From: Psychroflexus aestuariivivens
GTDB taxonomy: Bacteria; Bacteroidota; Bacteroidia; Flavobacteriales; Flavobacteriaceae
Assembly: GCF_004010055.1 (NCBI RefSeq)
Contig: NZ_RQVT01000018.1
Location: forward strand, 186,001 to 250,000
Length of the DNA stretch: 64,000 nt
Direction: 5' to 3'
Shown: piece by piece, positions 40,744-55,606 of the stretch
How the letters are laid out: each line of letters begins with the position of its first letter
How positions within the stretch are numbered: position 1 is the stretch's first letter
Notes under the pieces: generated by a model
What the model was told of the DNA's origin: nothing
Seen by the model: the letters and a program-made list of their open reading frames with translations, nothing else
The model's database searches: none
Position numbers and translations under genes: made by a program

Positions 40744-40786
40744 TGATTCTTGTCATTTTTATAAACATCGATATGTCAGAATTTTG
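40744..40786 (+). promoter_or_regulatory. Crp/Fnr-type dyad and -7 element of ccoI
   Basis: TGATTCTTGTCA at 40744-40755 is a TGA-N6-TCA dyad centred at 40749.5. GAATTTTG at 40779-40786 matches TAnnTTTG with one change and starts exactly 29.5 nt from the dyad centre, the same spacing as for ccoS and hemN. The ATG follows at 40807. Confidence 0.55.
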
Positions 40787-40806
40787 TCTTCATTATAAAA
40801 GTGAAA

Positions 40807-43182
40807 ATGTCTATACACACATGTTACCATTGTGGCGATTCTTGCAAAACGAATGCCATTCATTACGATGACAAAGATTTTTGTTGCCGGGGCTGCAAAA
40901 CGGTTTACGAAATTTTCTCTGAAAACGACTTGAATTGTTATTATGATTTGGAACATACTCCTGGAGCTACACCAAGTGATATTCAAGGCAAATATGATTA
41001 TTTGGCTGATGCTAAAATCATTGAAAAGCTTGTAGATTTTCAAGATGAAGACACAGAAGTCGTCACACTTTATATTCCTCATATCCATTGCAGTTCTTGT
41101 ATTTGGGTATTAGAAAACCTCAATAAATTGATTTCTCAAGTTGTAACTTCCCAAGTAGATTTTCCAAGTAAAAAAGTGAGCGTTACATATCATACAGAAA
41201 ATTTTTCACTTCAGAAGTTGGTAGAAACTTTGTCTAAAATTGGGTACGAACCTTATATCAGTTTAGAAAATTACGATAAAAAAAGCACTGAAGTAGACCG
41301 AAGTTTAATCTATAAGATTGGCGTTGCTGGTTTTGCTTTTGGCAACGTTATGTTTCTAAGTTTTCCAGAATATTTTGAAGTTTCAGAATATTGGTTAGAA
41401 CAATACAAACCACTTTTTAGATGGTTGATGTTTTCCTTTAGTTTGCCGGTGGTTTTCTATGCTGGATTAGATTATTTCGTATCTGCATTCAAAGGCATTA
41501 AAAACAAAATTTTAAATATTGATATTCCTATTGCATTAGGTATTTCTGTACTTTTCATTCGAAGCAGTATTGATATTATTTTCGATTTTGGTTCAGGTTT
41601 TTTCGATAGTTTAACGGGTTTGGTTTTCTTTTTATTACTGGGAAAAGTCGTTCAGCAGAAAACATACAAGTTCATGTCTTTCGAAAGAGATTATAAATCT
41701 TATTTTCCGATTGCTGTCACTAAAATTAAAACCGACAAAACAGAAGAGAATATTCAGGTTTACGATATCAAGTCAGGCGATGAGTTACTGATTAGAAACC
41801 AAGAGCTAATTCCTGTCGATGGAATTTTGATGTCGGATTCTGCAGAAATAGATTATAGTTTTGTTACAGGCGAAGCTAAAATTGTCCATAAATCTTCTGG
41901 CGATCGTGTTTTTGCAGGAGGTAAACAAATCGGAAACGCCATAGAAGTTGTAGCTGAAAAATCAGTAGAACAAAGTTATCTGACCCAACTTTGGAGTAAC
42001 GACGTTTTTGGGAAAAACTATGATCCGAAGTTTCAAACACTCATCAATAAAATTAGCAGAAAATTTACGATAGCAGTTTTAACCATTGCGTTTTCGGGAT
42101 TGATATTTTGGTTATTTTATGACGCTAGTTTGGCACTAAACGTGTTTACCGCTGTTCTGATTATTGCATGTCCTTGCGCTATTGCGTTGGCAACACCTTT
42201 TGCATTAGGAAACTTACTTCGCATTTTCGGGCAACGCGGTTTTTATTTGAAAAATACCAATAGTTTAGAGCAATTGGCAGACATCAATGCTTTTGTTTTC
42301 GATAAAACAGGCACCTTAACTACCAATCAGAAAAGTGAAATCACCTACGAGGGCCTAGACTTAGAGGATGAAGATCGCTTGGTGCTAAAGAATTCTTTTC
42401 GAAATTCTAATCATCCTTTAAGCCGTGAATTATATCAATTTTTGGAAAGCAATGACATATTGACTTCAGATTCTTTTGAGGAGCATTTGGGTGAAGGAAT
42501 TGTATCCAAACACAACAACCATACTTATAAATTAGGTTCTGCTAAATTCGTTTCAGGTCAGGTTTCATCTACGCTTTCTACAGCTGTCCACATCAGTAAG
42601 GACGAAGAATATTTAGGTAAATTCGTTTTTGAAACTCAATATAGAGATGGAATTCAAGAACTTTTTCAAGCAATGGATGAGCATTTTAAACTTATTATTT
42701 TATCTGGAGATAATGAAGGTGAAAAGGCATTTTTGACTAAGATGTTGCCCAAAACAACGCAAATGTTCTTCAATCAAAAACCAGACTCTAAACTCAGATT
42801 CATCAAAAAAATCCAAGACGAAAACAAAAAAGTTTGCATGCTTGGTGATGGACTGAATGACGCCGGCGCATTGAAACAAGCCGATGTCGGTATTGCGATT
42901 TCAGAAAACGTGAATGTGTTTTCTCCTGCCTGCGATGCTATTATGGATGCCAAAATACTTCCTAAACTTGACATTTTCGTTCAGATTGCAAAACAAGGAA
43001 TCACAATCATAAAACTCAGTTTTATTTTTTCATTTATTTATAATGCAATCGGATTGTATTTCGCACTCACGGGACAATTGAAACCAGTTATTGCAGCAAT
43101 TTTAATGCCGCTGAGTTCTATCAGCATTGTTGTTTTTACAACTTTAGCAACAAATTATATATCAAAAAAATTGAAGAATTAA
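40807..43182 (+). CDS. ccoI: Cbb3 oxidase-associated copper P-type ATPase
   Basis: A P1B-type ATPase of 791 residues that moves copper for cbb3 oxidase maturation. The N-terminus has a cysteine-rich metal domain (CYHCGDSC...FCCRGC), then an HMA-like domain with HCSSC, eight predicted helices, the translocation motif CPC (455-457), phosphorylation site DKTGTLT starting at Asp499 and the hinge GDGLNDAGAL. The ATG at 40807 is preferred over the in-frame GTG at 40801. ccoS follows, but with its own promoter. Confidence 0.94.
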   Translation: MSIHTCYHCGDSCKTNAIHYDDKDFCCRGCKTVYEIFSENDLNCYYDLEHTPGATPSDIQGKYDYLADAKIIEKLVDFQDEDTEVVTLYIPHIHCSSCIWVLENLNKLISQVVTSQVDFPSKKVSVTYHTENFSLQKLVETLSKIGYEPYISLENYDKKSTEVDRSLIYKIGVAGFAFGNVMFLSFPEYFEVSEYWLEQYKPLFRWLMFSFSLPVVFYAGLDYFVSAFKGIKNKILNIDIPIALGISVLFIRSSIDIIFDFGSGFFDSLTGLVFFLLLGKVVQQKTYKFMSFERDYKSYFPIAVTKIKTDKTEENIQVYDIKSGDELLIRNQELIPVDGILMSDSAEIDYSFVTGEAKIVHKSSGDRVFAGGKQIGNAIEVVAEKSVEQSYLTQLWSNDVFGKNYDPKFQTLINKISRKFTIAVLTIAFSGLIFWLFYDASLALNVFTAVLIIACPCAIALATPFALGNLLRIFGQRGFYLKNTNSLEQLADINAFVFDKTGTLTTNQKSEITYEGLDLEDEDRLVLKNSFRNSNHPLSRELYQFLESNDILTSDSFEEHLGEGIVSKHNNHTYKLGSAKFVSGQVSSTLSTAVHISKDEEYLGKFVFETQYRDGIQELFQAMDEHFKLIILSGDNEGEKAFLTKMLPKTTQMFFNQKPDSKLRFIKKIQDENKKVCMLGDGLNDAGALKQADVGIAISENVNVFSPACDAIMDAKILPKLDIFVQIAKQGITIIKLSFIFSFIYNAIGLYFALTGQLKPVIAAILMPLSSISIVVFTTLATNYISKKLKN

Positions 43183-43198
43183 TGAAATACCACAAACA

Positions 43199-43241
43199 TG
43201 ACAGAAGTCATTTTTTAAGCTTCTGTTCACATTTATTTTTG
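43199..43241 (+). promoter_or_regulatory. Crp/Fnr-type dyad and -7 element of the ccoS-ccoNOQP operon
   Basis: ATGACAGAAGTCAT (43198-43211) is a 5-4-5 palindrome (ATGAC-N4-GTCAT) with core TGAC-N4-GTCA at 43199-43210, centre 43204.5. TATTTTTG at 43234-43241 is a perfect -7 element starting 29.5 nt from that centre. There is no good -33 TTTG, as expected for a promoter that depends on an activator bound near -41. The ATG follows at 43260. Confidence 0.65.
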
Positions 43242-43259
43242 AAACAAATTTAAATCACT

Positions 43260-43466
43260 ATGAATGTCATTTACGGTTTGTTAGCTATCAGTATTATTGT
43301 TGCCCTTGTGTTTTTTGTGATGTTTATTCTTTCAGTGAAAAAGGGACAATTTGACGATGCTTACACACCTTCAGTAAGAATGCTTTTCGATGACGAAATC
43401 GTCAAAGACAAAACAAAAGAAACCAAAGAAAAATCTAAAAATTCTAATACACAAAAACAATCATAA
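43260..43466 (+). CDS. ccoS: Cbb3-type oxidase assembly protein CcoS
   Basis: A 68-residue CcoS: one N-terminal transmembrane helix (about residues 5-28), then the family block KKGQFDDAYTPSVRMLFDDE and a lysine-rich tail. CcoS is needed to insert haem and copper into the catalytic subunit of cbb3 oxidase in studied bacteria. It starts at an ATG 19 nt behind a strong -7 element and ends 2 nt before ccoNO, so it is the first gene of the structural operon. Confidence 0.92.
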   Translation: MNVIYGLLAISIIVALVFFVMFILSVKKGQFDDAYTPSVRMLFDDEIVKDKTKETKEKSKNSNTQKQS

Positions 43467-43468
43467 CT

Positions 43469-45664
43469 ATGGAGTTACAGCAATTTCATTACGATAATAA
43501 AATCGTAAAAAACTTCCTCTATGCCACAATTATTTGGGGTGTAGTTGGTATGTCTGTAGGGCTTTTATTAGCCTTTATGTTTATTTTTCCAAGCGTGACC
43601 GATGGGATTTCTTGGCTGAGTTTTGGTCGATTAAGACCGCTACATACAAATGCAGTTATTTTTGCTTTTATAGGTAATGCAATTTTTGCAGGTGTGTATT
43701 ATTCTACACAGCGATTACTTAAGGCTAGAATGTTTAGTGATGTTTTAAGCAAAATCAATTTTTGGGGTTGGCAATTAATTATTGTCGCAGCTGCAATCAC
43801 TTTGCCTTTAGGCTTTACCAGTTCTAAAGAATATGCAGAATTGGAGTGGCCAATTGATATTATGATTGCTGTAGTTTGGGTTGTTTTCGGCTGGAATTTA
43901 ATAGGAACTATTTTAAGACGTCGCCAACGCCATTTGTATGTGGCGATTTGGTTTTACCTAGCTACCTTCGTTACTGTTGCCGTACTTCATATTTTTAATA
44001 GTTTAGCACTTCCTGTAAACTTTTTGAAAAGTTATTCCGCTTATGCCGGAGTTCAGGATGCACTTGTGCAATGGTGGTACGGTCATAATGCGGTAGCTTT
44101 CTTTTTGACGACACCATTTTTAGGTCTCATGTATTATTTTGTTCCAAAAGCGGCCAATAGACCTGTGTATTCTTATAAATTATCTATCATCCACTTTTGG
44201 TCTCTGATTTTTATATATATCTGGGCTGGACCTCACCATTTGCTTTATACAGCTTTACCAGATTGGGCTCAAAATCTTGGTGTAACTTTTTCCGTAATGT
44301 TACTGATGCCATCTTGGGGAGGAATGATCAACGGTTTATTAACGCTTCGTGGCGCTTGGGATAAAGTTAGAACAAGTCCAGTACTCAAATTTATGGTAGT
44401 TGCTATTACTGGTTATGGTATGGCAACTTTTGAAGGCCCGATGTTGTCTTTGAAAAATGTAAATGCAATTGCTCACTTTACAGATTGGATTATTGCTCAC
44501 GTTCATGTTGGCGCTTTGGCGTGGAATGGTTTCTTGACTTTTGGTATGGTTTACTGGTTAGTGCCGAGATTGTTTAAAACCAAACTATTCTCAATTGGCT
44601 TAGCCAACTTGCATTTTTGGTTGGGAACTTTAGGTATTGTAGTTTATGCTTTACCTATGTATGTAGCTGGATTCCTACAAGCGTCAATGTGGAAACAATT
44701 TAATCCAGATGGCAGTTTATTTTATGGTAACTTTTTAGAAACTGTTACTGAAATCATGCCGATGTATTGGATGAGAGCTATTGGCGGAAGTATGTATATC
44801 ATCGGTGCTTTTGTTATGATTTATAACGTTATCCAAACTGCAAGATCTGGTTCAAAAGTTGAAGATGAATTGGCAGAAGCTGCTGCTTTATCTAAAATTA
44901 CTGGTAGAAAGCGTGGCGAGAAATTCCATACTTGGTTAGAAAGAAAACCAATTCAACTTACAATTTTAGCCACTATCGCTATTTTAATTGGTGGAATTGT
45001 TCAAATCATACCAACACTTTTGGTAAAATCTAATATTCCGACGATTACAAGTGTAAAACCTTACACGCCACTGGAATTGGAAGGACGAGACATTTATATA
45101 AGAGAAGGTTGTGTCGGTTGTCACTCGCAAATGGTGAGACCATTCCGAAGCGAAGTTGAACGTTACGGCGAATACGCAAAAGCTGGAGAATTTGTTTACG
45201 ACCGACCATTCTTATGGGGAAGTAAACGTACTGGACCAGATTTATTGAGAGTTGGCGGAAAATACTCAGACAGCTGGCACTTTAACCACATGTACGATCC
45301 ACAAAGCACGTCTTCAGGCTCAATCATGCCTAGTTACCAATGGCTAATTAAAGATAAATTGGATAAATCTTCGACAGAAGGGAAAATGAAAACCATGGCA
45401 GATCTTGGAGTTCCATACAGTGAAGAAGATATTGAAAATGCAAAACAAAGTATGGATAAACAAGGAAAACAGATAGAGAAAAATCTATATGATGATCCAG
45501 ATTTTGTTAAAAGTTATGAAGCAGACAAAGCTTATGCAGAACAAAATAACGAAGACTTTGTTGAAATGAAAGACCGTGAAATTGTCGCGCTTATTGCTTA
45601 TCTCCAAAGATTAGGAACAGATATTAAAGTCAAAGATAATAATGAAGTTTCAACTTCAAATTAA
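43469..45664 (+). CDS. ccoNO: Fused cbb3 cytochrome oxidase subunits I/II (CcoN-CcoO)
   Basis: A 731-residue fusion. The N-terminal part (to about 500) is a CcoN haem-copper oxidase with the expected histidines (RPLHTNAVIFAF, WYGHNAVAFFL, WAGPHHLLYTALPDW, HVHVGALAWNG). The C-terminal part (about 500-720) is a CcoO cytochrome c domain with haem motif CVGCH (Cys548-His552) and a long MVRPFRSEVERYGEYAKAGE region. It reduces oxygen at very low concentration. The fusion is typical of Bacteroidota. It starts at an ATG. Confidence 0.96.
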   Translation: MELQQFHYDNKIVKNFLYATIIWGVVGMSVGLLLAFMFIFPSVTDGISWLSFGRLRPLHTNAVIFAFIGNAIFAGVYYSTQRLLKARMFSDVLSKINFWGWQLIIVAAAITLPLGFTSSKEYAELEWPIDIMIAVVWVVFGWNLIGTILRRRQRHLYVAIWFYLATFVTVAVLHIFNSLALPVNFLKSYSAYAGVQDALVQWWYGHNAVAFFLTTPFLGLMYYFVPKAANRPVYSYKLSIIHFWSLIFIYIWAGPHHLLYTALPDWAQNLGVTFSVMLLMPSWGGMINGLLTLRGAWDKVRTSPVLKFMVVAITGYGMATFEGPMLSLKNVNAIAHFTDWIIAHVHVGALAWNGFLTFGMVYWLVPRLFKTKLFSIGLANLHFWLGTLGIVVYALPMYVAGFLQASMWKQFNPDGSLFYGNFLETVTEIMPMYWMRAIGGSMYIIGAFVMIYNVIQTARSGSKVEDELAEAAALSKITGRKRGEKFHTWLERKPIQLTILATIAILIGGIVQIIPTLLVKSNIPTITSVKPYTPLELEGRDIYIREGCVGCHSQMVRPFRSEVERYGEYAKAGEFVYDRPFLWGSKRTGPDLLRVGGKYSDSWHFNHMYDPQSTSSGSIMPSYQWLIKDKLDKSSTEGKMKTMADLGVPYSEEDIENAKQSMDKQGKQIEKNLYDDPDFVKSYEADKAYAEQNNEDFVEMKDREIVALIAYLQRLGTDIKVKDNNEVSTSN

Positions 45665-45682
45665 TTCAAAAATTTAAAAGCT

Positions 45683-45868
45683 ATGTTGAAATTTATAAAA
45701 GGACACATGGAAACCATTGAAGGTATAGAAATCTACCCAATAATTTCCTTACTGATATTCTTTCTCTTTTTTGTTGGACTTTTCTGGTGGGTTTTTACTG
45801 CCAAAAAGGATTATGTAGAGAAGGTTAGCCAAATTCCATTAGAAAACCAAAACGATAACGAATTATGA
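45683..45868 (+). CDS. ccoQ: CcoQ-like cbb3 oxidase subunit
   Basis: A 61-residue protein with one transmembrane helix (about residues 20-39, ending FFVGLFWWVFTAKKDYVEKV). The Trp-rich helix and the following Lys-Lys-Asp-Tyr match the CcoQ/FixQ family, which stabilises the oxidase complex. Position between ccoNO and ccoP supports the call. Its stop overlaps the ccoP start by 4 nt (ATGA), showing translational coupling. Confidence 0.85.
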   Translation: MLKFIKGHMETIEGIEIYPIISLLIFFLFFVGLFWWVFTAKKDYVEKVSQIPLENQNDNEL

Positions 45869-46758
45869 GAAAATTATCATCATTTTTAAGATTAATAGCA
45901 TTGCTTGGCATTGCTTGGTTAGGCGTCGAACTTTTGTTAGAAACAGAATCCGGACAATGGGCGATTGTGGAATATCCAATGTCTTGGCTTTTTTTAGGTG
46001 TGGTTTTTCTTTTTGCTCTGGCGATGGAAGCTTCTGTATCGGCTTTGCAAAACACCCTTTATAAGTCATTATCCGAAGAAAAAAGAGAAAAATACCACGA
46101 ACTTGAAACTGATAGATTAGAAAATCTGAAGTCGAAGTTCAATTGGATTTTTATATCTCTAACAAGATCTAAACCCGTTGAAGAGGAAGATGAAATTGAA
46201 CTTGATCACAATTACGATGGAATACGTGAATTGGATAACAAACTTCCGCCTTGGTGGTTGTATAGTTTTTATGCAAGTATTGTTTTTGCCGCAGTTTATC
46301 TTGTGAGATTTCATGTCTTCAATGATTATGATCAAATTGAAGAATATGAAGCTGAAGTCGCTCAAGCTAAAATTGATATAGAAGAATACAAAAAAACTGC
46401 TAAAGACTTAGTTACTATAGAAAATGTATCAGTTCTTGAAGAAGCAGCAGATTTAGAAGTTGGAAATCAAATCTATCTAAATAATTGTGTAGCCTGTCAT
46501 AAAGCTGATGGTGGAGGTGGAATTGGTCCTAATCTAACCGATGAACATTGGATTCTTGGTGGCGGGATTAAAAACGTTTACAAAACTTTAGTTGAAGGCG
46601 GAAGACCTGGAAAAGGTATGGTAGCTTGGAAAAACGATTTTTCACCATACGAGCTTCAGCAAGTTGCGAGTTATGTATTGAGCTTGCAAGGTACAGAACC
46701 AGCAGAACCCAAAGAACCTCAAGGTGAAATTTGGGAAGATGATTCAGATTCAGAATAA
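45865..46758 (+). CDS. ccoP: Cbb3 oxidase subunit III, single-haem CcoP
   Basis: A 297-residue CcoP. Two N-terminal hydrophobic segments (about 7-60) are followed by a charged loop, the CcoP N-terminal block DGIRELDNKLPPWWLY with a third helix, and one cytochrome c domain with CVACH (Cys208-His212), GIGPNLTDEHW and KGMVAWKNDFSP. The usual CcoP has two CxxCH motifs; only one is present here. It would carry electrons to the catalytic subunit. It overlaps ccoQ by 4 nt. Confidence 0.93.
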   Translation: MRKLSSFLRLIALLGIAWLGVELLLETESGQWAIVEYPMSWLFLGVVFLFALAMEASVSALQNTLYKSLSEEKREKYHELETDRLENLKSKFNWIFISLTRSKPVEEEDEIELDHNYDGIRELDNKLPPWWLYSFYASIVFAAVYLVRFHVFNDYDQIEEYEAEVAQAKIDIEEYKKTAKDLVTIENVSVLEEAADLEVGNQIYLNNCVACHKADGGGGIGPNLTDEHWILGGGIKNVYKTLVEGGRPGKGMVAWKNDFSPYELQQVASYVLSLQGTEPAEPKEPQGEIWEDDSDSE

Positions 46759-46776
46759 AACTTAGCAAGCAAAAGT

Positions 46777-48192
46777 ATGGACAATCAGGAAAAGTTTAGA
46801 GACAGTATCGGTACCTTGGATGATGAGGGGAAACGCAAGTGGGTTTATCCAAAGCAGCCAAGTGGCAGATATTATGATTACCGAAAATGGGTAAGCTACG
46901 CACTCTTAATTTTCCTTTTTGCAGCACCTTTTATCAAAATAAACGGCAATCAGTTTTTATTGTTTAATGTATTGGAACGGAAATTCAATATTTTTGGATT
47001 TCCGTTTTGGCCTCAAGATTTTTATCTTTTTGTCATTTCAATGATTATTGGTGTGGTGTTTATCGCACTTTTTACAGTTGCTTTTGGAAGAATTTTCTGT
47101 GGCTGGATTTGTCCTCAAACCATTTTTTTAGAAATGGTTTTCAGAAGAATAGAATATGCCATAGAAGGTGATCGTGGCAAACAAATTAGATTGGATAAAA
47201 TGCCTTGGAATCGCGAAAAGATTGTCAAAAAATCTTCGAAATGGGCTATTTTTGCATTGATTTCCTTTCTAATTGCCAATGTATTTTTAGCCTATTTAGT
47301 CGGTAGCGACCAACTTTTAAAATACATCATCAACGGTCCTTCTGGTCATTTGGGAACTTTCATTCCGCTACTTATTTTTACTGCTGTCTTTTATTTCATT
47401 TTTGCTTGGTTTAGAGAACAAGTCTGCATTATTGCTTGTCCTTATGGCAGATTGCAAGGTGTGCTTTTGGACAATAAATCAGTAGTTGTAGCCTACGATC
47501 ACAAACGCGGTGAGCGAGAAGAAGGACGTCAAAAGTTTAAGAAGAATCAAGATAGGAAAGCCAGTGGAATAGGGGATTGTATCGATTGTTTTCAATGCGT
47601 ACAGGTTTGCCCAACCGGAATTGACATAAGAAACGGAACGCAGTTGGAATGTGTAAATTGTACTGCATGTATTGATGCTTGTGATGATATTATGGTAAAA
47701 GTTGATTTGCCAAAAGGTCTGATTCGTTACGCAAGTGAAGAAAATATAGAAAAGAAAGCCAAATTTAAATTCAATGCCAGAATGAAAGGCTACACGGCTG
47801 TTTTGGCAATATTAATCGGTTTATTGGTTGGCATGCTCATGATTAGAAGTGATGTTGAAGCGAAAGTTTTAAGATTACCTGGTCAAATTTATGAAACAAA
47901 AGACAATGGTAATATTTCCAATGTATTCACTTATAAATTAATCAATAAGACCAACCAAGATATGGATAGTATTCATTTTAAACTGCATAACATTGATGGT
48001 GATTTGAAGCTGGTCAAAAAAGATTATTTTCTGTTGGAAGAAAGTGGGCTAGCCAAAGGCACATTGTTTATAGAAATTGAGCCTGAGTTACTGAAAGAAG
48101 CCAATAACAAAATTGAAATTGGCGTCTACAGCAAAGACGAATTAATAGATATGGCAACCACTAATTTTATGGGGCCAAGAACTTTTAGATAA
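46777..48192 (+). CDS. ccoG: Cbb3 oxidase accessory Fe-S protein CcoG
   Basis: A 471-residue membrane ferredoxin of the CcoG/RdxA/FixG family. It has about five transmembrane helices, the conserved block FCGWICPQTIFLEMVFRR, a second cysteine group in CIIACPYGRLQG, and two ferredoxin-like clusters (CIDCFQCVQVCPTGID and CVNCTACIDACDD). Studied CcoG proteins reduce Cu(II) to Cu(I) for oxidase assembly. The C-terminal part is an Ig-like periplasmic domain. It starts at an ATG 18 nt after ccoP and 6 nt before ccoH. Confidence 0.94.
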   Translation: MDNQEKFRDSIGTLDDEGKRKWVYPKQPSGRYYDYRKWVSYALLIFLFAAPFIKINGNQFLLFNVLERKFNIFGFPFWPQDFYLFVISMIIGVVFIALFTVAFGRIFCGWICPQTIFLEMVFRRIEYAIEGDRGKQIRLDKMPWNREKIVKKSSKWAIFALISFLIANVFLAYLVGSDQLLKYIINGPSGHLGTFIPLLIFTAVFYFIFAWFREQVCIIACPYGRLQGVLLDNKSVVVAYDHKRGEREEGRQKFKKNQDRKASGIGDCIDCFQCVQVCPTGIDIRNGTQLECVNCTACIDACDDIMVKVDLPKGLIRYASEENIEKKAKFKFNARMKGYTAVLAILIGLLVGMLMIRSDVEAKVLRLPGQIYETKDNGNISNVFTYKLINKTNQDMDSIHFKLHNIDGDLKLVKKDYFLLEESGLAKGTLFIEIEPELLKEANNKIEIGVYSKDELIDMATTNFMGPRTFR

Positions 48193-48198
48193 AAAATT

Positions 48199-48645: not shown

Positions 48646-49350
48646 ATGCTTTGGTCGGCTTTCATATTTGGTTTATTAGGAAGTTTGCACTGCGTCGGTA
48701 TGTGTGGGCCAATTGCACTAATGCTACCTGTCGACCGACAAAATAAAACCCGAAAGTTTTTTCAAATTTTCCTCTATCATTTAGGTCGAATTTCGACTTA
48801 TGCATTGATCGGACTCCTTTTTGGCCTGATTGGTGAAAGTTTTGCAATGTTCGGTTTTCAGCAGCAATTGTCCATAATCATAGGTGTTTTGATGTTGCTT
48901 TCTGTAATTTTACCTCAATCGACATTGAATTCAATTAAAATTACACAACCATTATATAGATTCATCGGTAAAATAAAATCTGAAATCGGTCAATCTTTGA
49001 AGAAAAAAGAAATTGATACATTTTTTTATCTAGGATTTCTGAATGGTTTTTTACCCTGTGGATTGGTTTACATGGCGGTTTTCGCTTCAGTTGCAGTTTC
49101 TGACCTTTTGAATAGTTCAGCTTACATGGTGATTTTTGGATTAGGAACTATTCCTTTGATGACTTTAGTGATTTATGCTAAGGATTTCATTCAAAAAATA
49201 ATTAAATTCAATGTTAGAAAAATTATTCCTGTTGCTGTGGGAATTATCGGGATTTTATTTATTTTGAGAGGAATGGGTCTAGGTATTCCATATGTTTCAC
49301 CGAAACCGGCAACAGAACAAGTAGACGCATCAAAGTCGTGTCACTTTTAA
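48646..49350 (+). CDS. Sulfite exporter TauE/SafE-like protein of the cco locus
   Basis: A 234-residue polytopic membrane protein with six predicted helices. The first helix ends in LHCVGMCGPIALM (Cys-x3-Cys with a preceding His) and a later block reads FLNGFLPCGLVYMAVF, both typical of the TauE/SafE-like family found in cbb3 and copper loci (relatives named CcoH2 or YggP-like). A role in copper handling rather than sulfite export is likely. Its ATG directly follows the ccoH stop. Confidence 0.88.
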   Translation: MLWSAFIFGLLGSLHCVGMCGPIALMLPVDRQNKTRKFFQIFLYHLGRISTYALIGLLFGLIGESFAMFGFQQQLSIIIGVLMLLSVILPQSTLNSIKITQPLYRFIGKIKSEIGQSLKKKEIDTFFYLGFLNGFLPCGLVYMAVFASVAVSDLLNSSAYMVIFGLGTIPLMTLVIYAKDFIQKIIKFNVRKIIPVAVGIIGILFILRGMGLGIPYVSPKPATEQVDASKSCHF

Positions 49351-49368
49351 AATTTAAAACTCAATTTT

Positions 49369-50652
49369 ATGCAAAATTATATCGACAAATCAACCGCTGT
49401 ATCTTTAGTCAATAGCGGCGATCGAATTTTCTTTCAAGGTGCCGCCATGACGCCTAAAATTTTAATAGAAGCTTTATGTCATCGCTACGAGAATCTTTCT
49501 GAAGTGGAAATTGTTCAACTTCATACCGAAGGCGAGGCGCTTTATACGCAAGATCCTTATCGAAAAGCTTTCAAAACCAACTCTTGTTTTGTAGGTGGAA
49601 ACGTCAGGAAAGCAGTAAATTCTGATTATGGGGATTATATTCCGATTTTTCTGAGTGAAATTCATCTACTTTTCAAACGCGGAATTTTACCGCTAGATGT
49701 TGCTTTTATCCAAGTATCTCCACCAGACAAACACGGCTATTGTTCATTAGGAACTTCTGTAGATGTCACGCTTGCAGCCATACAATCGGCTAAAAAAGTC
49801 ATCGCCCAAGTGAATCCAAAAGTACCGCGTTCTCACGGTGACGGCATCGTGCACATCAGCCAAATAGATGCTGCTGTAGAAGTCGATATGCCAATTCACG
49901 GGCACGATCCGCTAGTTGCCAATGAAATTGAAGAAAAAATCGGTCAGCATGTGGCACATTTAGTTGAAGACGGTGCAACTTTACAAATGGGAATCGGTGC
50001 TATTCCAAATGCGGTTTTGAATAATTTGTATCATCACAAAGGTTTAGGGATTCATACTGAAATGTTTTCAGATGGAATTTTGCCTTTGGTAGAAAAAGGA
50101 ATTATTACTGGTGAACATAAAGTCGTCAAACCGGGTAAAATTGTGACTTGTTTCGCGATGGGTTCGCAGAAATTATACGATTACATAGATGAAAATCCAA
50201 TGGTACATTTCAAAGAAGCCGCTTATACAAACGACACTGCGATTATAAGAAGAAACCCTAAAGTTACGGCGATTAACTCTGCTATAGAAATAGATTTAAC
50301 TGGACAAATTTGCGCTGATACTATTGGAAGACGACAATATTCTGGTGTTGGCGGTCAGATGGATTTCATTAGAGGTGCATCGCTTTCTGAAGGCGGAAAA
50401 GCTATTATTGCCATGCCTTCAGCAACTTACAAGGGAATTTCCAAAATTACACCATTTCTAAATGAAGGTGCAGGCGTGACCACAACAAGAGCACATGTTC
50501 ATTATGTGGTGACCGAAAATGGCGTGGTCAATTTATATGGAAAAAATTTAAAACAACGTGCCAAAGCTCTGATTTCTATCGCACATCCAGATCATCAGGA
50601 AAGCTTAGAAAAAGCAGCTTTTGAAAGATTTGAATCTTCAAAATTGAACTAA
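49369..50652 (+). CDS. Acetyl-CoA hydrolase/transferase family protein
   Basis: A 427-residue CoA-transferase of the 4-hydroxybutyrate/acetyl-CoA hydrolase type. The glycine-rich block is LQMGIGAIPNAVL and the catalytic Glu lies in HTEMFSDGILPL. Later come GQICADTIG and FIRGASLSEGGKAIIAMPS. It could exchange CoA between acetate and another short acid. It starts at an ATG 18 nt after the SafE-like gene with no terminator, so it probably belongs to the cco transcript. The exact substrate is uncertain. Confidence 0.9.
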   Translation: MQNYIDKSTAVSLVNSGDRIFFQGAAMTPKILIEALCHRYENLSEVEIVQLHTEGEALYTQDPYRKAFKTNSCFVGGNVRKAVNSDYGDYIPIFLSEIHLLFKRGILPLDVAFIQVSPPDKHGYCSLGTSVDVTLAAIQSAKKVIAQVNPKVPRSHGDGIVHISQIDAAVEVDMPIHGHDPLVANEIEEKIGQHVAHLVEDGATLQMGIGAIPNAVLNNLYHHKGLGIHTEMFSDGILPLVEKGIITGEHKVVKPGKIVTCFAMGSQKLYDYIDENPMVHFKEAAYTNDTAIIRRNPKVTAINSAIEIDLTGQICADTIGRRQYSGVGGQMDFIRGASLSEGGKAIIAMPSATYKGISKITPFLNEGAGVTTTRAHVHYVVTENGVVNLYGKNLKQRAKALISIAHPDHQESLEKAAFERFESSKLN

Positions 50653-51036
50653 ATGGAAGATATTGAGAGTAGGGAAGATGTGAGAATTTTAGTCGAAAAG
50701 TTTTATGAGAAAATAAGGCAGAATGATGAAATCGGTCATTTTTTCAATGAAACAATTACAGATTGGGAAGCGCATTTAGAAAAGTTGACTGATTTCTGGG
50801 AAAGCAACTTGTTTTTTAAATCCACATTTACAGGAAATCCAAAGCGGGCTCATATCAAAGTCGATCAAGCATTTGGTGAAAAAATCACCAATTATCACTT
50901 TGGGATTTGGATGAATTTGTGGTTTGAAACCATCGATGAGCTATACAGTGGAGAAATTGCACATCGTGCTAAAACTAATGCGAGAAAAATGTCGGTGCAT
51001 TTGTTTTTAGGAATTTATAAAGCCAGGTCGAAATAG
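50653..51036 (+). CDS. Group III truncated haemoglobin
   Basis: A 127-residue two-over-two truncated haemoglobin: VRILVEKFYEKIRQNDEIGHFF, then FWESNLFFKSTFTGNPKRAH and the haem His region HFGIWMNLWFETID. The length and Trp pattern fit group III. It would bind oxygen, NO or another small ligand in the cytoplasm. Its ATG directly abuts the stop of the CoA-transferase gene, so it is the last gene of the cco-linked run. NO detoxification near a cbb3 oxidase would make sense but is inference. Confidence 0.9.
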   Translation: MEDIESREDVRILVEKFYEKIRQNDEIGHFFNETITDWEAHLEKLTDFWESNLFFKSTFTGNPKRAHIKVDQAFGEKITNYHFGIWMNLWFETIDELYSGEIAHRAKTNARKMSVHLFLGIYKARSK

Positions 51037-51146
51037 GGCTTCCTTCGTATATAAATATTCACGTCAAATAGAAGTTCAGCTTTATAAGACCGCAAACTCT
51101 TATCATTTTTTTTATATTCGTATTTGTACTTCTGAAAACAAATATT

Positions 51147-51713
51147 ATGAAAAACATGTTTTTAGCATTATTAGCGATGAGTTTGTTTGCTTGTAGTAAT
51201 GATGACGACATTCAGGATAACGACCAAGACAACCAAGAATTCTTAAATAGTGTCCTAGGAAGTTATGAATTGAAAGCAGCTTATACCGATGTTACTCTAG
51301 ATTTAAATCACGACGGCAAGAAAACCACCGATCTTTTTGAAGAAGCCACATTTTGCAATATGTCTTCACTTCTAGAGTCATATAGAGGTTGGATTACTGA
51401 TGAAAATTTTTCTGAAATTGCGATTAAAATTCCCTACTCATACTATCTTGTAGAAACTGAAAATTTCAGTACTTGTTTAATGGATACTACTGTGTTTTAT
51501 AAAATCAATATTGATGAAGACCAAGAAGAAGTATCTTTGATTCCTAATGATTTTGAAGATGATTTCATTTCTGAATTCAATGCGGTATTTGTAGAGATGT
51601 ATTGGGAAAATGAAGTGGCATATTTTACCATAGAAAAAGAATTCTATAATTCTAACGGCGAGTGGCAAGAAGCGACGCTTTATATGGAATATGAGAAATT
51701 TCGAGATAAATAA
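51147..51713 (+). CDS. Hypothetical lipoprotein (lipocalin-like pattern)
   Basis: A 188-residue lipoprotein with lipobox LFACSN (Cys near residue 16) and an acidic Asp/Asn/Gln linker (DDDIQDNDQDNQEF). The mature domain begins GSYELKAAYTDVTLDLNHDG, a pattern seen in lipocalin-like Bacteroidota lipoproteins, and continues as a beta-rich domain with two further cysteines (residues in FCNMSS and STCLMDT). No family is certain. It starts at an ATG and a terminator follows. Confidence 0.72.
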   Translation: MKNMFLALLAMSLFACSNDDDIQDNDQDNQEFLNSVLGSYELKAAYTDVTLDLNHDGKKTTDLFEEATFCNMSSLLESYRGWITDENFSEIAIKIPYSYYLVETENFSTCLMDTTVFYKINIDEDQEEVSLIPNDFEDDFISEFNAVFVEMYWENEVAYFTIEKEFYNSNGEWQEATLYMEYEKFRDK

Positions 51714-51743
51714 CATTCAAAATAATTATTTTAATTGAGATTT

Positions 51744-51772
51744 AAATCCCTGCTTTTTTGTGGGGATTTTTT
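51744..51772 (+). terminator. Terminator after the lipoprotein gene
   Basis: AAATCCC at 51744-51750 pairs with GGGATTT at 51763-51769. Two wobble pairs and one C-G pair extend the stem to 10 bp around a TTTTTT loop, and a T-rich tail follows. Confidence 0.75.
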
Positions 51773-51808
51773 ATACTTGGCATTATGACCAATACAGTTA
51801 AGTTCAAG

Positions 51809-51839
51809 TTTGATATTGGTATAATTTGCACGATATTTG
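51809..51839 (+). promoter_or_regulatory. Putative promoter of the thioredoxin gene
   Basis: TTTG at 51809-51812, a 19-nt spacer and GATATTTG at 51832-51839 (one change from TAnnTTTG), 30 nt before the ATG at 51870. Confidence 0.45.
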
Positions 51840-51869
51840 AATAGAGGTTTTTAATGAAAACAATAAATT

Positions 51870-52163
51870 ATGAGTAAGTTTAGTCAGATTATTTCAGGAG
51901 ACACACCGGTTTTAGTAGATTTCTTTGCAGATTGGTGCGGCCCTTGTAAAACTTTAGCACCAATTCTAAAAGACCTCAAAGCGGATTTAGGCGATGAGGT
52001 GAAAATTGTAAAAATAGATGTTGATAAAAATCAAAGTTTAGCCGCAAAATATCAAGTGCGTGGCGTTCCAACACTGATTTTATTTAAAAATGGAGAACAA
52101 CAATGGCGACAAAGTGGTGTCCTACAAAAAGATGACTTAATCAAAGTGATTGAGTCTGTCTAA
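51870..52163 (+). CDS. trxA: Thioredoxin
   Basis: A 97-residue cytoplasmic thioredoxin, without signal peptide. The redox motif WCGPC is near residues 23-27 ([14 protein letters not shown]) and the cis-proline is in [13 protein letters not shown]. It is a few residues shorter at the N-terminus than the 105-109 typical of TrxA, as are many Bacteroidota thioredoxins. It keeps cytoplasmic dithiols reduced through thioredoxin reductase. A single gene with its own promoter and an ATG start. Other thioredoxins probably exist in the genome, so trxA is used loosely. Confidence 0.9.
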
Positions 52164-52185
52164 ATTTAAAAGTATATTTCTGAAA

Positions 52186-52842
52186 TTAGTTATTTTCTAA
52201 AGAAACGATAAGCCCTAAAGCAAAAGTGACGAAATTATTTTTATTCAAATAATCACTCTCCTGACGTGGTGCATCTATTGAGTTTGACAAAGAAAAATGA
52301 AAATTTGAACTAGCAAAAGCACGTAATGTTTGTTTTTCATTTAAGTAATACGAAACCTGTAAATCATTTTTTATGCCGTTATAATTTAAAATGTAGTTTC
52401 CAGTAAAATAGCTATTTCCTTCATTAACTTTGTGCCTTATGCTTCCATTAAAATATCCAAAATTTATGGTAGCGAGCAAGTTTTTGGTAATGAAATGTTC
52501 GTAATACACGAAAAAACTTAAAGTTGCCAAATGTTCTTTTTCAAAATTATCGCCTAGAAATACTTGACTATCCAACGATAGTTCAGTTCGGGAATAATTA
52601 ATTCCAATGCCACCTAAATTTTTTATTCCTCCTAAAATTCCCACGTTGATGCCTAAACTTGGGTCATAAGCTTCACTGAAGTAGCCATCGCTTAGACTTG
52701 ATAACAATTGACCGCCAGCAGTTATTTGAACTGTAAAATTGTCGTCATAACGTTGATCTAGATCATTCAAATTAGTACTTAAACTATCGGTTTGAGCAAT
52801 TATAATTTGACAAAATAAAAGTAAGCAAAGTGTTTTTTTCAT
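52186..52842 (-). CDS. Hypothetical outer-membrane beta-barrel-like protein
   Basis: A 218-residue protein with a signal peptide (MKKTLCLLLFCQIIIAQ) and a mature part made of alternating amphipathic strands with many Gly, Asn, Tyr and Phe residues (YEHFITKNLLATINFGYFNG), ending in a hydrophobic strand with aromatic residues (FVTFALGLIVSLENN). This suggests a small outer-membrane barrel of about eight strands. No family is recognised. It starts at an ATG 2 nt after the lipoprotein gene and is in an operon with it. Confidence 0.7.
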   Translation of the reverse strand: MKKTLCLLLFCQIIIAQTDSLSTNLNDLDQRYDDNFTVQITAGGQLLSSLSDGYFSEAYDPSLGINVGILGGIKNLGGIGINYSRTELSLDSQVFLGDNFEKEHLATLSFFVYYEHFITKNLLATINFGYFNGSIRHKVNEGNSYFTGNYILNYNGIKNDLQVSYYLNEKQTLRAFASSNFHFSLSNSIDAPRQESDYLNKNNFVTFALGLIVSLENN

Positions 52843-52844
52843 AA

Positions 52845-53282
52845 TTATTCAGATGGAATCAGTTGAATTGTGCCTAAATCATAATACAATTGGTCAGTAT
52901 TTACAGGAATTATAACATTATCTCTTTCTATAAATTCACCTTCAAATAAATACCTGAATTCGAGATCTGATGCTTCGAGATATAAAACCAAATCCAAAAA
53001 ATTAGTGCCAGGAAAATACATTTTGAATTCCCCAGCGGAATTGGTAGAAACGTTCATCCTTAAACTAATCGGGTTGCTGTAAAATGAATTGTTGATAATG
53101 TATTCATGCTCATTTTCACCTAGAAAAATCTTTAAATTTTCAACTGGTTGATTATTTTCATCGACAACTTTGCCTTCAAAAACATTTACAACATTATTCC
53201 TGAATTCATTTTTACAGCTAACTAAACTCAGTAGAAGGCAAGCTGAAATTAGCTTGAATATAAAACGATTGGTCGATTTCAT
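52845..53282 (-). CDS. Lipoprotein with carboxypeptidase-regulatory-like domain
   Basis: A 145-residue lipoprotein (lipobox LVSCKN, Cys near residue 22) with a CarboxypepD_reg-like/Ig-like domain: VFEGKVVDENNQPVENLKIFLGEN and STNSAGEFKMYFPG are the usual start and middle of that fold. It probably binds or displays at the outer membrane together with the barrel-like protein encoded next. The ATG at 53282 is used because the -7 element ends 3 nt upstream; a TTG at 53288 overlaps that element. Confidence 0.75.
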   Translation of the reverse strand: MKSTNRFIFKLISACLLLSLVSCKNEFRNNVVNVFEGKVVDENNQPVENLKIFLGENEHEYIINNSFYSNPISLRMNVSTNSAGEFKMYFPGTNFLDLVLYLEASDLEFRYLFEGEFIERDNVIIPVNTDQLYYDLGTIQLIPSE

Positions 53283-53285
53283 TTT

Positions 53286-53318
53286 CAAACATAATAAAAA
53301 AGAGGCTAATTTTGCAAA
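53286..53318 (-). promoter_or_regulatory. Promoter of the lipoprotein/barrel operon
   Basis: On the minus strand: TTTG at 53318-53315, a 21-nt spacer and TATGTTTG at 53293-53286. Only 3 nt lie between the -7 element and the ATG at 53282. The -33 element lies in the loop of the terminator of the preceding universal stress protein gene. Confidence 0.6.
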
Positions 53319-53326
53319 AAGCCTCT
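53295..53326 (-). terminator. Terminator of the universal stress protein gene
   Basis: AGAGGCT at 53326-53320 on the minus strand pairs with AGCCTCT at 53307-53301 (7-bp stem, 12-nt loop), followed by a T-run. It lies 28 nt after the stop at 53354 and overlaps the next promoter. Confidence 0.78.
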
Positions 53327-53353
53327 ATTAAATTTCGGTAAAGTTTTAAATAT

Positions 53354-54187
53354 TTAGATTTTAAAAGTCATCACTGGCAATTCTGAATGGTTCACCACAT
53401 CTTCACCAATACTGCCATTGAAAAAATGTGACAATCCTTTTCTACCGTGAGTTGGCATGGCTATTAAATCTGCTTTCAGTGATCTAGCACCGTTAATGAC
53501 ACCCTGTTCTATAGTGTAATCGTTATAAATTTCAATATTTTCTCTTGAAAGTGGCACTTCAACTTTATTCAAGAATTTACGCATTTGCTCACGGATTTCT
53601 TCAGTGCTGTAAAATTGATTGCCAGGTAAATTCACATAAAGCAATTGGATTTTAGCATCAAAACTATCAGCAAAATTTTTAGCTTTTTTATAAGCGTCTA
53701 AATTTTCCAATTCAAAATTTGAAGCAAAAACTACATTTTTGATATTGAAATCTTCAATTTCATTTTTTACAACCAAAATTGGAACTTTGGAATATCTTAC
53801 TACTTTTTCTGTATTAGAACCTATGACAATTTCCTCAAAACCAGAACTACCGCTTGATCCCATGACTACCAAATCGATGTCGTTTTTTTCTACGGATTCG
53901 TTGATTCCAAAAGTCGTTGAACCAGATTCTACATTGTCAATCACATTTACGTCTTTTAGAAAGTCTTTATCTAAAAACTTACTAAACCTTTGTTTTGCCA
54001 GTTTCATAAAGAAAATGATTTGCTCATCATCAACATTGAATTGTGCTCCTCCGAATAGTGATTCTGCCAATTCAATAACGTGTAAAACATGCAGTTCTGC
54101 GTTATTTTTTTTAGCCAATTGTGCTGCAATTCTCAAGGCATTTTCAGATGGTTTTGAAAAGTCTACGGGTACTAATATTTTTTTCAT
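53354..54187 (-). CDS. Universal stress protein (two Usp domains)
   Basis: A 277-residue tandem UspA protein. The first domain begins KKILVPVDFSKPSENALRIA and ends with VVMGSSGSSGFEEIVIGS; the second begins NVVFASNFELENLDAYKKA and ends PTHGRKGLSHFFNGSIGED. The G-x2-G-x9-G-S/T nucleotide motif is complete in the first domain and recognisable in the second (HGRKGLSHFFNGSIG). It starts at an ATG 11 nt after the hemN stop and is probably co-transcribed with it, fitting the link of Usp proteins with low-oxygen regulons elsewhere. Confidence 0.9.
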   Translation of the reverse strand: MKKILVPVDFSKPSENALRIAAQLAKKNNAELHVLHVIELAESLFGGAQFNVDDEQIIFFMKLAKQRFSKFLDKDFLKDVNVIDNVESGSTTFGINESVEKNDIDLVVMGSSGSSGFEEIVIGSNTEKVVRYSKVPILVVKNEIEDFNIKNVVFASNFELENLDAYKKAKNFADSFDAKIQLLYVNLPGNQFYSTEEIREQMRKFLNKVEVPLSRENIEIYNDYTIEQGVINGARSLKADLIAMPTHGRKGLSHFFNGSIGEDVVNHSELPVMTFKI

Positions 54188-54198
54188 TGTTTTAGGTT

Positions 54199-55545
54199 TT
54201 AAATAGTCATTGAAAATAATTTGGTTTCAGGTTGTTTTGATTTTAATCTTAAATCGAAAGCCATACAAATATTTCTTATAAAGGCTTTTCCCTTATTTTT
54301 TACAATAATTTTATTGTTTTGTATTGAAATTAACTCATCTTGCTCGAACTCTTTTAAATCTGTGATAATATCGTTAAAAATCAAGTTATTTTCATCATTT
54401 TTATCCCAACTTGTTTCAAAGTTACACATTAAATTTAAAATATGTCGACGAATATTTAAATCTTTTTGATTCAAAATATGACCTCTAAATACTGGTAATT
54501 TCATTTCTGAAATTCGACTGTAATAATCTTCCAATTTTTTTTCATTTTGGGCAAATGCAAACCAACTATCACTAATTGCAGAAACTCCTAAACCGATAAG
54601 TTGTTCGGTTTTTGTAGTGGTATAACCCATAAAATTTCTGTGTAATTTTCCATTTTGAAAAGCGATGTTTAGTTCATCTTCTGGAAGTGCAAAATGATCC
54701 ATACCAATTTCAATATAACCGATATCTTCTAGCATTTTTTTGCCAGTTTCATATTGCAAACGCTTCTGTTTTGGAGAAGGTAAATCCGTTTCGCTAAATC
54801 CGCGTTGTCCATTGCCTTTGGTCCAAGGGACGTGCGCATAACTGTAAAATGCAATTCTGTCTGGCATCAAGATTTTGGTTTTCTTGATTGTGTTTATGAT
54901 GTCTTCCAGAGTTTGTTTTGGCAAACCGTAAATAATATCATGACCAACAGAAGTATAACCTATTTTTCTTGCATTTTCGGTTGCTTTTTGAACGTTTTCA
55001 AAAGATTGAATTCTGTGAATTGCTTTTTGAACTTCAGGGTTGTAATCTTGAATGCCATAACTGACTCTGCGAAAGCCAAGATTGAATAAAGTTTCAAGAT
55101 GTGATTTTGTGGTGTTATTTGGGTGACCTTCAAAACTGAAATTGATATCTTCCGTTTTTGCTGAAGTTTTTAATAAAGTTTCAATGAGAAATTTTAAATT
55201 TTCTGGATTGAAAAAAGTTGGTGTACCACCGCCTAAATGAATTTCTTTGATTTTAGGTTTATGAGAAAAAATATCCAAGTACATATTCCATTCTTGAAGC
55301 AATGCTTGGATGTAAGGAGATTCGACCTCGTGTCTTTTGGTGATTCGCTTATTGCAGGCACAAAATGTACATAGGCTTTCACAAAATGGCAAATGAATAT
55401 ACAAGCTGATTTCATCACTACCATGTTGCTGAAGTGATTTTTTCCAACTAGCGATTGAAAAATTAGCCTCTTCCCAGTATGGCACTGTTGGATAGCTTGT
55501 GTATCTCGGCCCTGGTACATTGTATTTTTCAATTAAATTTCTCAT
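54199..55545 (-). CDS. hemN: Oxygen-independent coproporphyrinogen III oxidase
   Basis: A 448-residue radical-SAM enzyme that decarboxylates coproporphyrinogen III to protoporphyrinogen IX without oxygen. The Fe-S motif is C-x3-C-x2-C-x-C (Cys55, 59, 62, 64 in PFCESLCTFCACN), preceded by GPRYTSYPTVPYW and followed by EIHLGGGTPTFF. The length and the C-terminal HemN domain fit true HemN rather than HemW. The ATG at 55545 is used (a TTG lies 6 nt upstream). The promoter carries the same operator as the cco genes. Confidence 0.94.
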   Translation of the reverse strand: MRNLIEKYNVPGPRYTSYPTVPYWEEANFSIASWKKSLQQHGSDEISLYIHLPFCESLCTFCACNKRITKRHEVESPYIQALLQEWNMYLDIFSHKPKIKEIHLGGGTPTFFNPENLKFLIETLLKTSAKTEDINFSFEGHPNNTTKSHLETLFNLGFRRVSYGIQDYNPEVQKAIHRIQSFENVQKATENARKIGYTSVGHDIIYGLPKQTLEDIINTIKKTKILMPDRIAFYSYAHVPWTKGNGQRGFSETDLPSPKQKRLQYETGKKMLEDIGYIEIGMDHFALPEDELNIAFQNGKLHRNFMGYTTTKTEQLIGLGVSAISDSWFAFAQNEKKLEDYYSRISEMKLPVFRGHILNQKDLNIRRHILNLMCNFETSWDKNDENNLIFNDIITDLKEFEQDELISIQNNKIIVKNKGKAFIRNICMAFDLRLKSKQPETKLFSMTI

Positions 55546-55563
55546 TCTCAACTAAATTTAAAT

Positions 55564-55606
55564 CAAAGATACTGGCTAACTTCAGCATCGTAAATGATAT
55601 AAATCA
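55564..55606 (-). promoter_or_regulatory. Crp/Fnr-type dyad and -7 element of hemN
   Basis: TGATATAAATCA at 55595-55606 (TGAT-N4-ATCA, the core of the classical FNR box) is centred at 55600.5. On the minus strand the -7 element TATCTTTG occupies 55571-55564, starting 29.5 nt from the dyad centre, the same geometry as the ccoI and ccoS promoters. The ATG is at 55545. Confidence 0.65.

Follow-up and report, generated by a model that had tools for sequence, protein, structure and literature searches.

Does the TGA-N6-TCA dyad shared by the ccoI, ccoS and hemN promoters of Psychroflexus aestuariivivens act as an operator, and which protein would read it? The window (the whole stretch of DNA analysed, 64,000 nucleotides) carries all three genes together with ccoNO (Table 1). 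A first-pass annotation had placed each dyad centre 29.5 nt upstream of the first base of the -7 element. The dyad sequences and coordinates that it gave are all correct on recheck, and the offset is the same at all three promoters, with the dyad centre and first -7 base at 40749.5 and 40779 (ccoI), 43204.5 and 43234 (ccoS), and 55600.5 and 55571 (hemN, minus strand). This offset corresponds to 23 bases between the end of the dyad and the -7 element (N=23). The 68-aa reading frame upstream of ccoNO is one that we take to be ccoS from its position. The hemN gene and the universal stress protein (usp) gene are probably on one transcript, judging by their shared strand and 11-nt gap.

Table 1. 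Promoter elements and genes in the window (positions count from its first letter).
Feature	Position	Strand	Remarks
ccoI operator TGATTCTTGTCA	40744..40755	+	dyad in 20/23 other-genus ccoI loci
ccoI -7 element GAATTTTG	40779..40786	+	nAnnTTTG variant, same in relatives' ccoI
Operator TGACAGAAGTCA ahead of ccoS and cbb3 oxidase genes	43199..43210	+	dyad conserved
ccoS -7 element TATTTTTG	43234..43241	+
hemN operator, TGATATAAATCA on + strand, TGATTTATATCA on gene strand	55595..55606	-	in register in relatives
hemN -7 element TATCTTTG	55564..55571	-
185-aa protein, divergent from ccoI	40119..40676	-	no Pfam family
ccoI, copper-transporting P-type ATPase	40801..43182	+	Pfam E1-E2_ATPase, HMA, ATPase-cat_bd
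ccoS (presumed), small cbb3 assembly protein, 68 aa	43260..43466	+	short similar ORF at same place in 25 relatives
ccoNO fusion, cbb3 oxidase	43469..45664	+	Pfam COX1 and FixO
Universal stress protein, directly 3' of hemN	53354..54187	-	Pfam Usp
hemN, oxygen-independent coproporphyrinogen III oxidase	54199..55545	-	NCBIfam TIGR00538 above cut-off

The dyads might be chance occurrences of a pattern that is frequent in AT-rich DNA, with a shared offset noticed only afterwards, and TGA-N6-TCA by itself is indeed common in the window (43 occurrences, 31.2 expected). In register with nAnnTTTG, however, exactly these three are found on the two strands, while in-register TGAYN4RTCA has a mean of 0.03 in 200 random Markov-1 windows, none of which holds three. 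Other spacings in the window have means of 0.17 for TGA-N6-TCA and 0.05 for TGAYN4RTCA. The earlier statement of three in-register dyads stands, with the caveat that the odds of 1 in 4096 attached to it take no account of the post hoc choice of offset. The -7 element of ccoI departs from TAnnTTTG.

A search of the whole genome for TGAYN4RTCA upstream of TAnnTTTG, over 31 spacings, gives 25 matches, six of them at N=23 (binomial p 1.2e-4 for the one spacing, 0.004 corrected, and 0.006 without ccoS and hemN). Four of the six have a fitting gene, namely ccoS, hemN, a usp-like gene (contig C9) and an HYC_CC_PP gene (C52). The other two may be chance: C56:216773 is inside a reading frame, and C48:223348 has no nearby reading frame of 90 aa on its strand. 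With an unrestricted centre (TGA-N6-TCA) there are 113 matches, eight at N=23, and the peak is weak; the Y/R restriction made it sharper. Allowing one mismatch at N=23 gives 88 matches, including eight exact ones. Of the 80 inexact sites, eight were inspected (C1:125393, C51, C52:35243, C57:54073, C57:226744, C57:278081, C61 and C64); a fitting gene is present at five of these, C57:278081 is inside a reading frame, C64 has no such gene, and C1:125393 is ambiguous.

The relatives speak against chance. In a first scan of other genera, dyads are kept upstream of the orthologous genes at ccoS in 25/25 loci and at ccoI in 20/23. The ccoS dyad is in register in all 19 same-genus loci and the hemN dyad in 20 of 25 family genomes (this genome counted in both sets), the hemN exceptions being four genomes with no dyad and one with a dyad 1 nt off. 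Across 80 related loci, TGAYN4RTCA followed by TAnnTTTG occurs 106 times at N=23, whereas 40 other spacings average 1.0 (nine at N=24 and six at N=25); the spacing is specific. Those of the first-pass annotation's own refuting conditions that could be checked, conservation at orthologues and specificity of spacing, both came out in its favour. The N=23 count is 48 after promoters between the genes for REC-CRP (described below) and usp were filtered out, a figure that still contains at least two of them (L291, L312); control dyads give 0 to 3. We regard chance as a negligible explanation. Because of the spacing peak and the conservation at orthologues, the sequences identify the ccoI, ccoS and hemN dyads as a CRP/FNR operator, probably of class II. 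One further in-register dyad, in G060, lies ahead of a ScdA_N/hemerythrin gene of the iron-sulfur repair type.

Taking the -7 element as a proxy for the start site, the operator would be centred near -41; class II activation by FNR and CRP uses an operator centred near -41.5. The two arrangements share the TGA-N6-TCA dyad, the dimer geometry and an activator in place of an upstream promoter element. They differ in that the promoter here is of the Bacteroidota TAnnTTTG type and lacks the -33 TTG consensus, with a T and a T-rich stretch following the dyad. Bound some 41 bp ahead of the start site, an activator dimer would contact RNA polymerase and so replace the missing -33 element.

As for the reader of the operator, 20 of the 22 other genera first sampled carry an FNR-like gene next to ccoI or close by (adjoining in 19, about 4 kb off in one). 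It is absent here (P0001 has no counterpart in G000 at E 1e-30), and the position that it has in most sampled genera is occupied in this genome by the 185-aa protein, which has relatives at the same place in three same-genus genomes. The genome encodes only two cNMP/HTH_Crp proteins. The first, the receiver-CRP fusion REC-CRP (C9), combines Response_reg, cNMP_binding and HTH_Crp_2 within one 343-aa protein, and its receiver Asp and acidic pocket (D10, D11, D53, S83, K105) are invariant in six aligned genera. The phosphate-binding Arg-Ser of CRP, which binds the cyclic nucleotide, seems absent in an alignment judged by eye. Among the best 60 of 292 structure matches there is no solved REC-CRP chain; each covers one half. 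The FNR-like proteins of the Flavobacteriaceae have a recognition helix nearly identical to that of REC-CRP and the same operators, but are stand-alone, with an N-terminal CxxC in 19/20.

The second protein (C25, 208 aa) has a neighbouring gene that by eye is rhodanese-like, and as one of only two CRP-family proteins it could itself read a real operator. We consider this very improbable. At the place of CRP Glu181 it has Val, and at the 180-equivalent Arg, whereas Glu and Arg are conserved in REC-CRP and in the FNR-like proteins; PMC1274295 gives residue 181 as a specificity position in the CRP family, and by the correlation described there TGA half-sites are therefore not expected for the C25 protein. 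Its neighbours, too, resemble sulfur genes by eye.

The distribution of FNR and REC-CRP also bears on the question. The 62 cbb3-bearing family genomes examined comprise 17 with FNR only, 14 with both, 31 with REC-CRP only and none with neither; by these cut-offs FNR is absent from this genome and 30 others, and the weak FNR matches were assigned by judgement (G028, 35%, and G055, 37%, as paralogues; G018, 43%, as FNR). Leaving this genus out, REC-CRP occurs in 9/9 FNR-less genomes versus 13/30 with FNR (p 0.0025, kinship ignored); in a kinship-corrected pair test the differing pairs are in the expected direction, but number four and are not significant. Outside the family, ccoNO occurs with neither regulator, at the same cut-offs, in six relatives that have small genomes (0.3-0.6 Mb, f15). 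The most likely reader of the operator here is REC-CRP and not FNR.

A histidine kinase adjoins REC-CRP in 80/80 loci, and a usp gene follows in 79/80. In all 80 rows the REC-CRP-to-usp gap contains a dyad and, at the same offset, TA; the stricter -7 pattern is present in 71. In G001 REC-CRP is present and no in-register dyad follows, so that this copy may be another paralogue. Besides a putative haem PAS domain the kinase has HisKA and HATPase, and the best PDB matches of the PAS domain are the haem oxygen sensors DosP and FixL, with which it shares the PAS sequence, the aligned haem His and the distal Arg; unlike them, it is coupled to a REC-CRP regulator. Of 81 kinases, 78 retain the His (it is changed or missing in three, one of them truncated at the end of a contig) and 65 retain the Arg (changed or missing in 16). 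With these residues taken as axial His and distal Arg, the kinase fits the FixL type by its sequence features.

We consider it likely that a CRP/FNR-type activator uses the dyads as class II operators, and that here this activator is REC-CRP phosphorylated by the adjacent haem-PAS kinase (C9). REC-CRP would unite in a single protein a receiver resembling FixJ and a DNA-binding part resembling FixK, and low oxygen would switch on ccoI (copper loading), ccoS-ccoNO and the following genes (cbb3 oxidase), and hemN (oxygen-independent haem synthesis). The signal might instead be NO or redox state, with the haem-PAS kinase sensing NO or another kinase driving REC-CRP. NO and CO are among the possible ligands of haem PAS domains, and the ScdA_N/hemerythrin dyad in G060 would suit such a signal, but the best PAS matches are oxygen sensors and the target genes are microaerobic, so we hold oxygen the better candidate and NO or redox state rather unlikely.

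The central operator bases bear on the apparent change of regulator. They are A/T only in 56/57 sites where FNR is retained versus 15/44 with REC-CRP only, and G or C occurs in 1/57 and 29/44, respectively (kinship ignored; only sites passing the -7 pattern and, from G030, the hemN site that is 1 nt off, the window's own ccoI site excluded). A reduced count gives 9/22 (p 2e-5), with G051, of the same genus label, still included. The kinship-corrected pair test again has differing pairs as expected, four in number and not significant. GC content was rejected as the cause (locus GC 0.366 vs 0.367, spacer GC 0.293 vs 0.277). The cco loci of four of 13 FNR-less genomes (G051, G055, G059, G060) have all-A/T cores, and REC-CRP and FNR differ in strictness at most, because 52/77 sites after REC-CRP have no core G or C. 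A CcoI tree covering 34 genomes rejects the hypothesis that FNR loss had a single origin (AU p 3e-12, four or more changes forced), the number of losses being uncertain given one gene tree, the very long G018 branch and possible gene transfer. The core-base difference suggests that one regulator replaced another while the operators stayed in place.

It could also be that REC-CRP reads only usp-type stress genes, with ccoI, ccoS and hemN under another, unknown activator or their dyads relics of the FNR era. The tie to usp is far closer than that to ccoI, ccoNO, hemN or an FNR-like gene, which lie in the flank (up to 6 kb) in 20/80 loci, and G051 has unchanged A/T cores though its close relative G048 keeps FNR. 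Against this, the ccoS dyad preserves its half-sites and its register throughout the same-genus loci while core bases vary, which argues for selection, and apart from the C25 protein the CRP-family proteins are exhausted. We judge this reading unlikely, and retain REC-CRP as the probable activator of all three promoters.

The nearest parallel is in rhizobia, where, according to PMC7888657, FixL-FixJ-FixK and hFixL-FxkR-FixK act with FnrN in parallel, the anaeroboxes (TTGAT-N4-ATCAA) ahead of fixNOQP and fixGHIS serve both a CRP-type protein and an Fe-S FNR protein, and activating anaeroboxes are given at -32 to -34. A haem-PAS kinase, a response regulator and a CRP-type protein on similar boxes are common to both systems, but FixJ and FixK are separate in rhizobia, whereas here receiver and CRP parts are fused, so that neither a FixK gene of its own nor a further operator step would be needed. 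Control of the cbb3 oxidase is well described in rhizobia; our literature search listed no paper on it in Flavobacteriaceae, and no title or abstract opening that deals with this operator or REC-CRP in that family, although the REC-CRP architecture may be described already.

Taken jointly, we lean towards a history in which the Fe-S protein FNR was lost more than once, in several Flavobacteriaceae lineages, its class II operators passing to a haem-PAS kinase and a FixJ-FixK fusion within one protein. The core, A/T wherever FNR stays, would then have drifted, so that the sequence records the sensor in charge, and the same module would drive usp and ribosome-hibernation genes in a dormancy-like low-oxygen regulon. 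The rule of TGAYN4RTCA, 23 bases and TAnnTTTG makes the low-oxygen regulons of a large family searchable by promoter, a candidate sensor for such a regulon is now named, and the apparent regulator replacements offer a natural series for following how operators change after a swap.

As the first-pass annotation had claimed, TGA-N6-TCA dyads precede ccoI, ccoS and hemN, with an identical offset of 29.5 nt from the dyad centre to the -7 element (23 bases past the dyad end; N=23, or "in register"). No other dyad in the window, whichever the strand, has nAnnTTTG so placed. Since the dyad by itself is frequent (43 in the window vs 31 expected), the signal lies in the register; for the stricter form TGAYN4RTCA, in-register sites averaged 0.03 in 200 random windows, and three were never reached. 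Across the genome (3.1 Mb, 64 contigs), 6 of the 25 TGAYN4RTCA/TAnnTTTG pairs found over 31 spacings lie at N=23 (Table), with no fitting gene at those on contigs C48 and C56. At five of the eight one-mismatch sites inspected (out of 80 at N=23), a fitting gene was present. In-register dyads also occur at S30AE-like genes in several other-genus loci of REC-CRP, a receiver-CRP fusion. On C52, two near-identical promoter copies lie before the HYC_CC_PP and AraC-type genes, with a usp (universal stress protein) gene farther downstream.

Features with sites or genes discussed in the text
Feature	Location	Remarks
185-aa protein of no Pfam family	window 40119-40676, minus strand	at the place of the FNR-like gene; relatives in same genus
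REC-CRP	C9	343 aa; receiver, cNMP_binding, HTH_Crp_2; adjoins PAS histidine kinase
ccoS	window	N=23 site
hemN	window	N=23 site
usp-like gene directly after REC-CRP gene	C9	N=23 site
HYC_CC_PP-family gene	C52	N=23 site
ccoI		one-mismatch site
Ribosome-hibernation gene (Ribosomal_S30AE)	C57:54073-54115; L079:2241-2543	one-mismatch site; dyad L079:2605; -7 TAnnTTTA in register
YceI gene		one-mismatch site
Redox-enzyme/2Fe-2S ferredoxin gene pair		one-mismatch site
AraC-type gene		one-mismatch site
Promoter copies, C52	L081:3480 and 4244	in-register dyads
ScdA_N/hemerythrin gene, G060	L396:671	in-register dyad
ScdA_N/hemerythrin gene, G024	L224:2046	in-register dyad

The dyads are also conserved upstream of orthologues. 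For hemN (31 family genomes, one per genus, this genome among them), the orthologue is present in 25 and the dyad is in register in 20 of these; in G030 the spacing is 1 nt longer, and no hemN dyad was found in G011, G013, G020 and G022. The ccoS dyad occurs in all 25 other-genus loci, where the -7 element satisfies the script pattern in 17, is TAnnTTTA in register in 7 more (rows read by eye), and in G022 has a displaced TA ahead of an in-register TTTG; within the genus it is in register in 19/19 loci, this genome counted (19 of 23 genomes entered, the other four being outside the count). At ccoI, 20 of 23 other-genus loci have the dyad, 16 with nAnnTTTG in register; of the rest, one is 1 nt off and three went unscored because the scan ended close to the annotated start. 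G006, dyad-less at ccoI in the first scan, has the dyad once the true upstream region is taken.

A CRP-family gene of ~220-240 aa (FNR-like) lies on the opposite strand in 20 of the 22 other-genus loci showing ccoI and its upstream region; 19 adjoin ccoI, the G018 copy is ~4 kb off, and G024 and G028 have none at ccoI. An N-terminal CxxC occurs in 19 of the 20 proteins, and all 20 have Cys in one shared motif, which we take to be the equivalent of E. coli FNR C122. This genome encodes two CRP-family proteins. One is REC-CRP, 76% identical to its Psychroflexus longus counterpart, which points to Psychroflexus (Flavobacteriaceae) as the genus; the other has 208 aa and is encoded on C25. The specificity positions of the recognition helix are occupied by Glu and Arg in REC-CRP as in the FNR-like proteins; in the C25 protein the Glu is replaced by Val.

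Among 72 family genomes (23 of the same genus, 49 others), ccoNO is present in 62, of which 17 have FNR only, 14 both regulators, 31 REC-CRP only and none neither; the ten without ccoNO have neither (7) or FNR (3). Outside the genus, REC-CRP is found in 9/9 FNR-less cbb3 genomes vs 13/30 with FNR (Fisher 0.0025, kinship ignored); within it, FNR is missing in 22/23 and REC-CRP present in 23/23. In other families of the order, 20 of 26 ccoNO genomes have an FNR-like match, and six small symbiont-like genomes (f15) have ccoNO and neither regulator. Counted ccoNO reading frames include some with internal stop codons (G004, G038, G092, and the small-genome relatives G094, G101, G112 and G116). In G055, G059, G060, G070 and G071, picked for being FNR-less, the cco-locus dyads are still in register. 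Near ccoI in FNR-less G060 and G024, an in-register dyad precedes a gene of the ScdA_N/hemerythrin iron-sulfur repair type (Pfam support for G060 only), hinting at a link to NO.

The same spacing dominates the REC-CRP loci (80 named, ~2 Mb over both strands; the best 80 of at least 555 candidate relatives, so close ones). Here 106 TGAYN4RTCA dyads are followed by strict TAnnTTTG at N=23, and the other 40 spacings from 5 to 45 average 1.0 (maximum 9, at N=24); controls using different flanks or half-sites yield 0 to 3. Removal of the REC-CRP-to-usp promoters leaves 48, at least two such promoters having escaped the filter, and many of the 48 stand before genes that, going by their N-terminal residues, code for Usp or ribosome-hibernation proteins (Pfam confirms one). 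All 106 sites have T immediately 3' of the dyad, and they show no -33 TTG consensus.

The four core bases inside TGAY...RTCA at ccoS, ccoI and hemN are A/T-only in 56/57 sites of FNR-keeping genomes, REC-CRP present or not; G or C occurs in 29/44 sites of REC-CRP-only genomes (9/22 after thinning mostly to one genome per genus, p 2e-5). Locus GC and spacer GC are alike in the two groups. Sites between REC-CRP and usp were detected in 77 of the 80 loci (best 80 of at least 555), and since 25 of the 77 carry G or C, REC-CRP too seems to prefer A/T cores, less strictly than FNR. Along the CcoI tree the pattern runs in one direction, with too few pairs for the kinship-corrected test. Four of the 13 FNR-less genomes retain A/T cores. 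One of the four is G051, which has a close, FNR-keeping relative in G048; recent FNR loss would give such cores.

In all 80 loci (best 80 of at least 555 relatives) the kinase is immediately upstream of REC-CRP and a dyad lies between REC-CRP and the downstream gene, which is usp in 79. The best solved-structure matches of the kinase PAS are DosP (E 3e-18) and FixL (E 7e-17); the kinase residues corresponding to their haem-ligand His and distal Arg are conserved in 78 and 65 of the 81 sequences, respectively, and the phosphoacceptor His in 81/81. The operator is a predicted, ordinary class II CRP/FNR site, a conserved element on a Bacteroidota promoter; what stands out is its regulator. In this organism the reader is quite probably REC-CRP driven by the haem-PAS kinase; judging from the protein families, the signal would be oxygen, passed from kinase to REC-CRP by phosphorelay.
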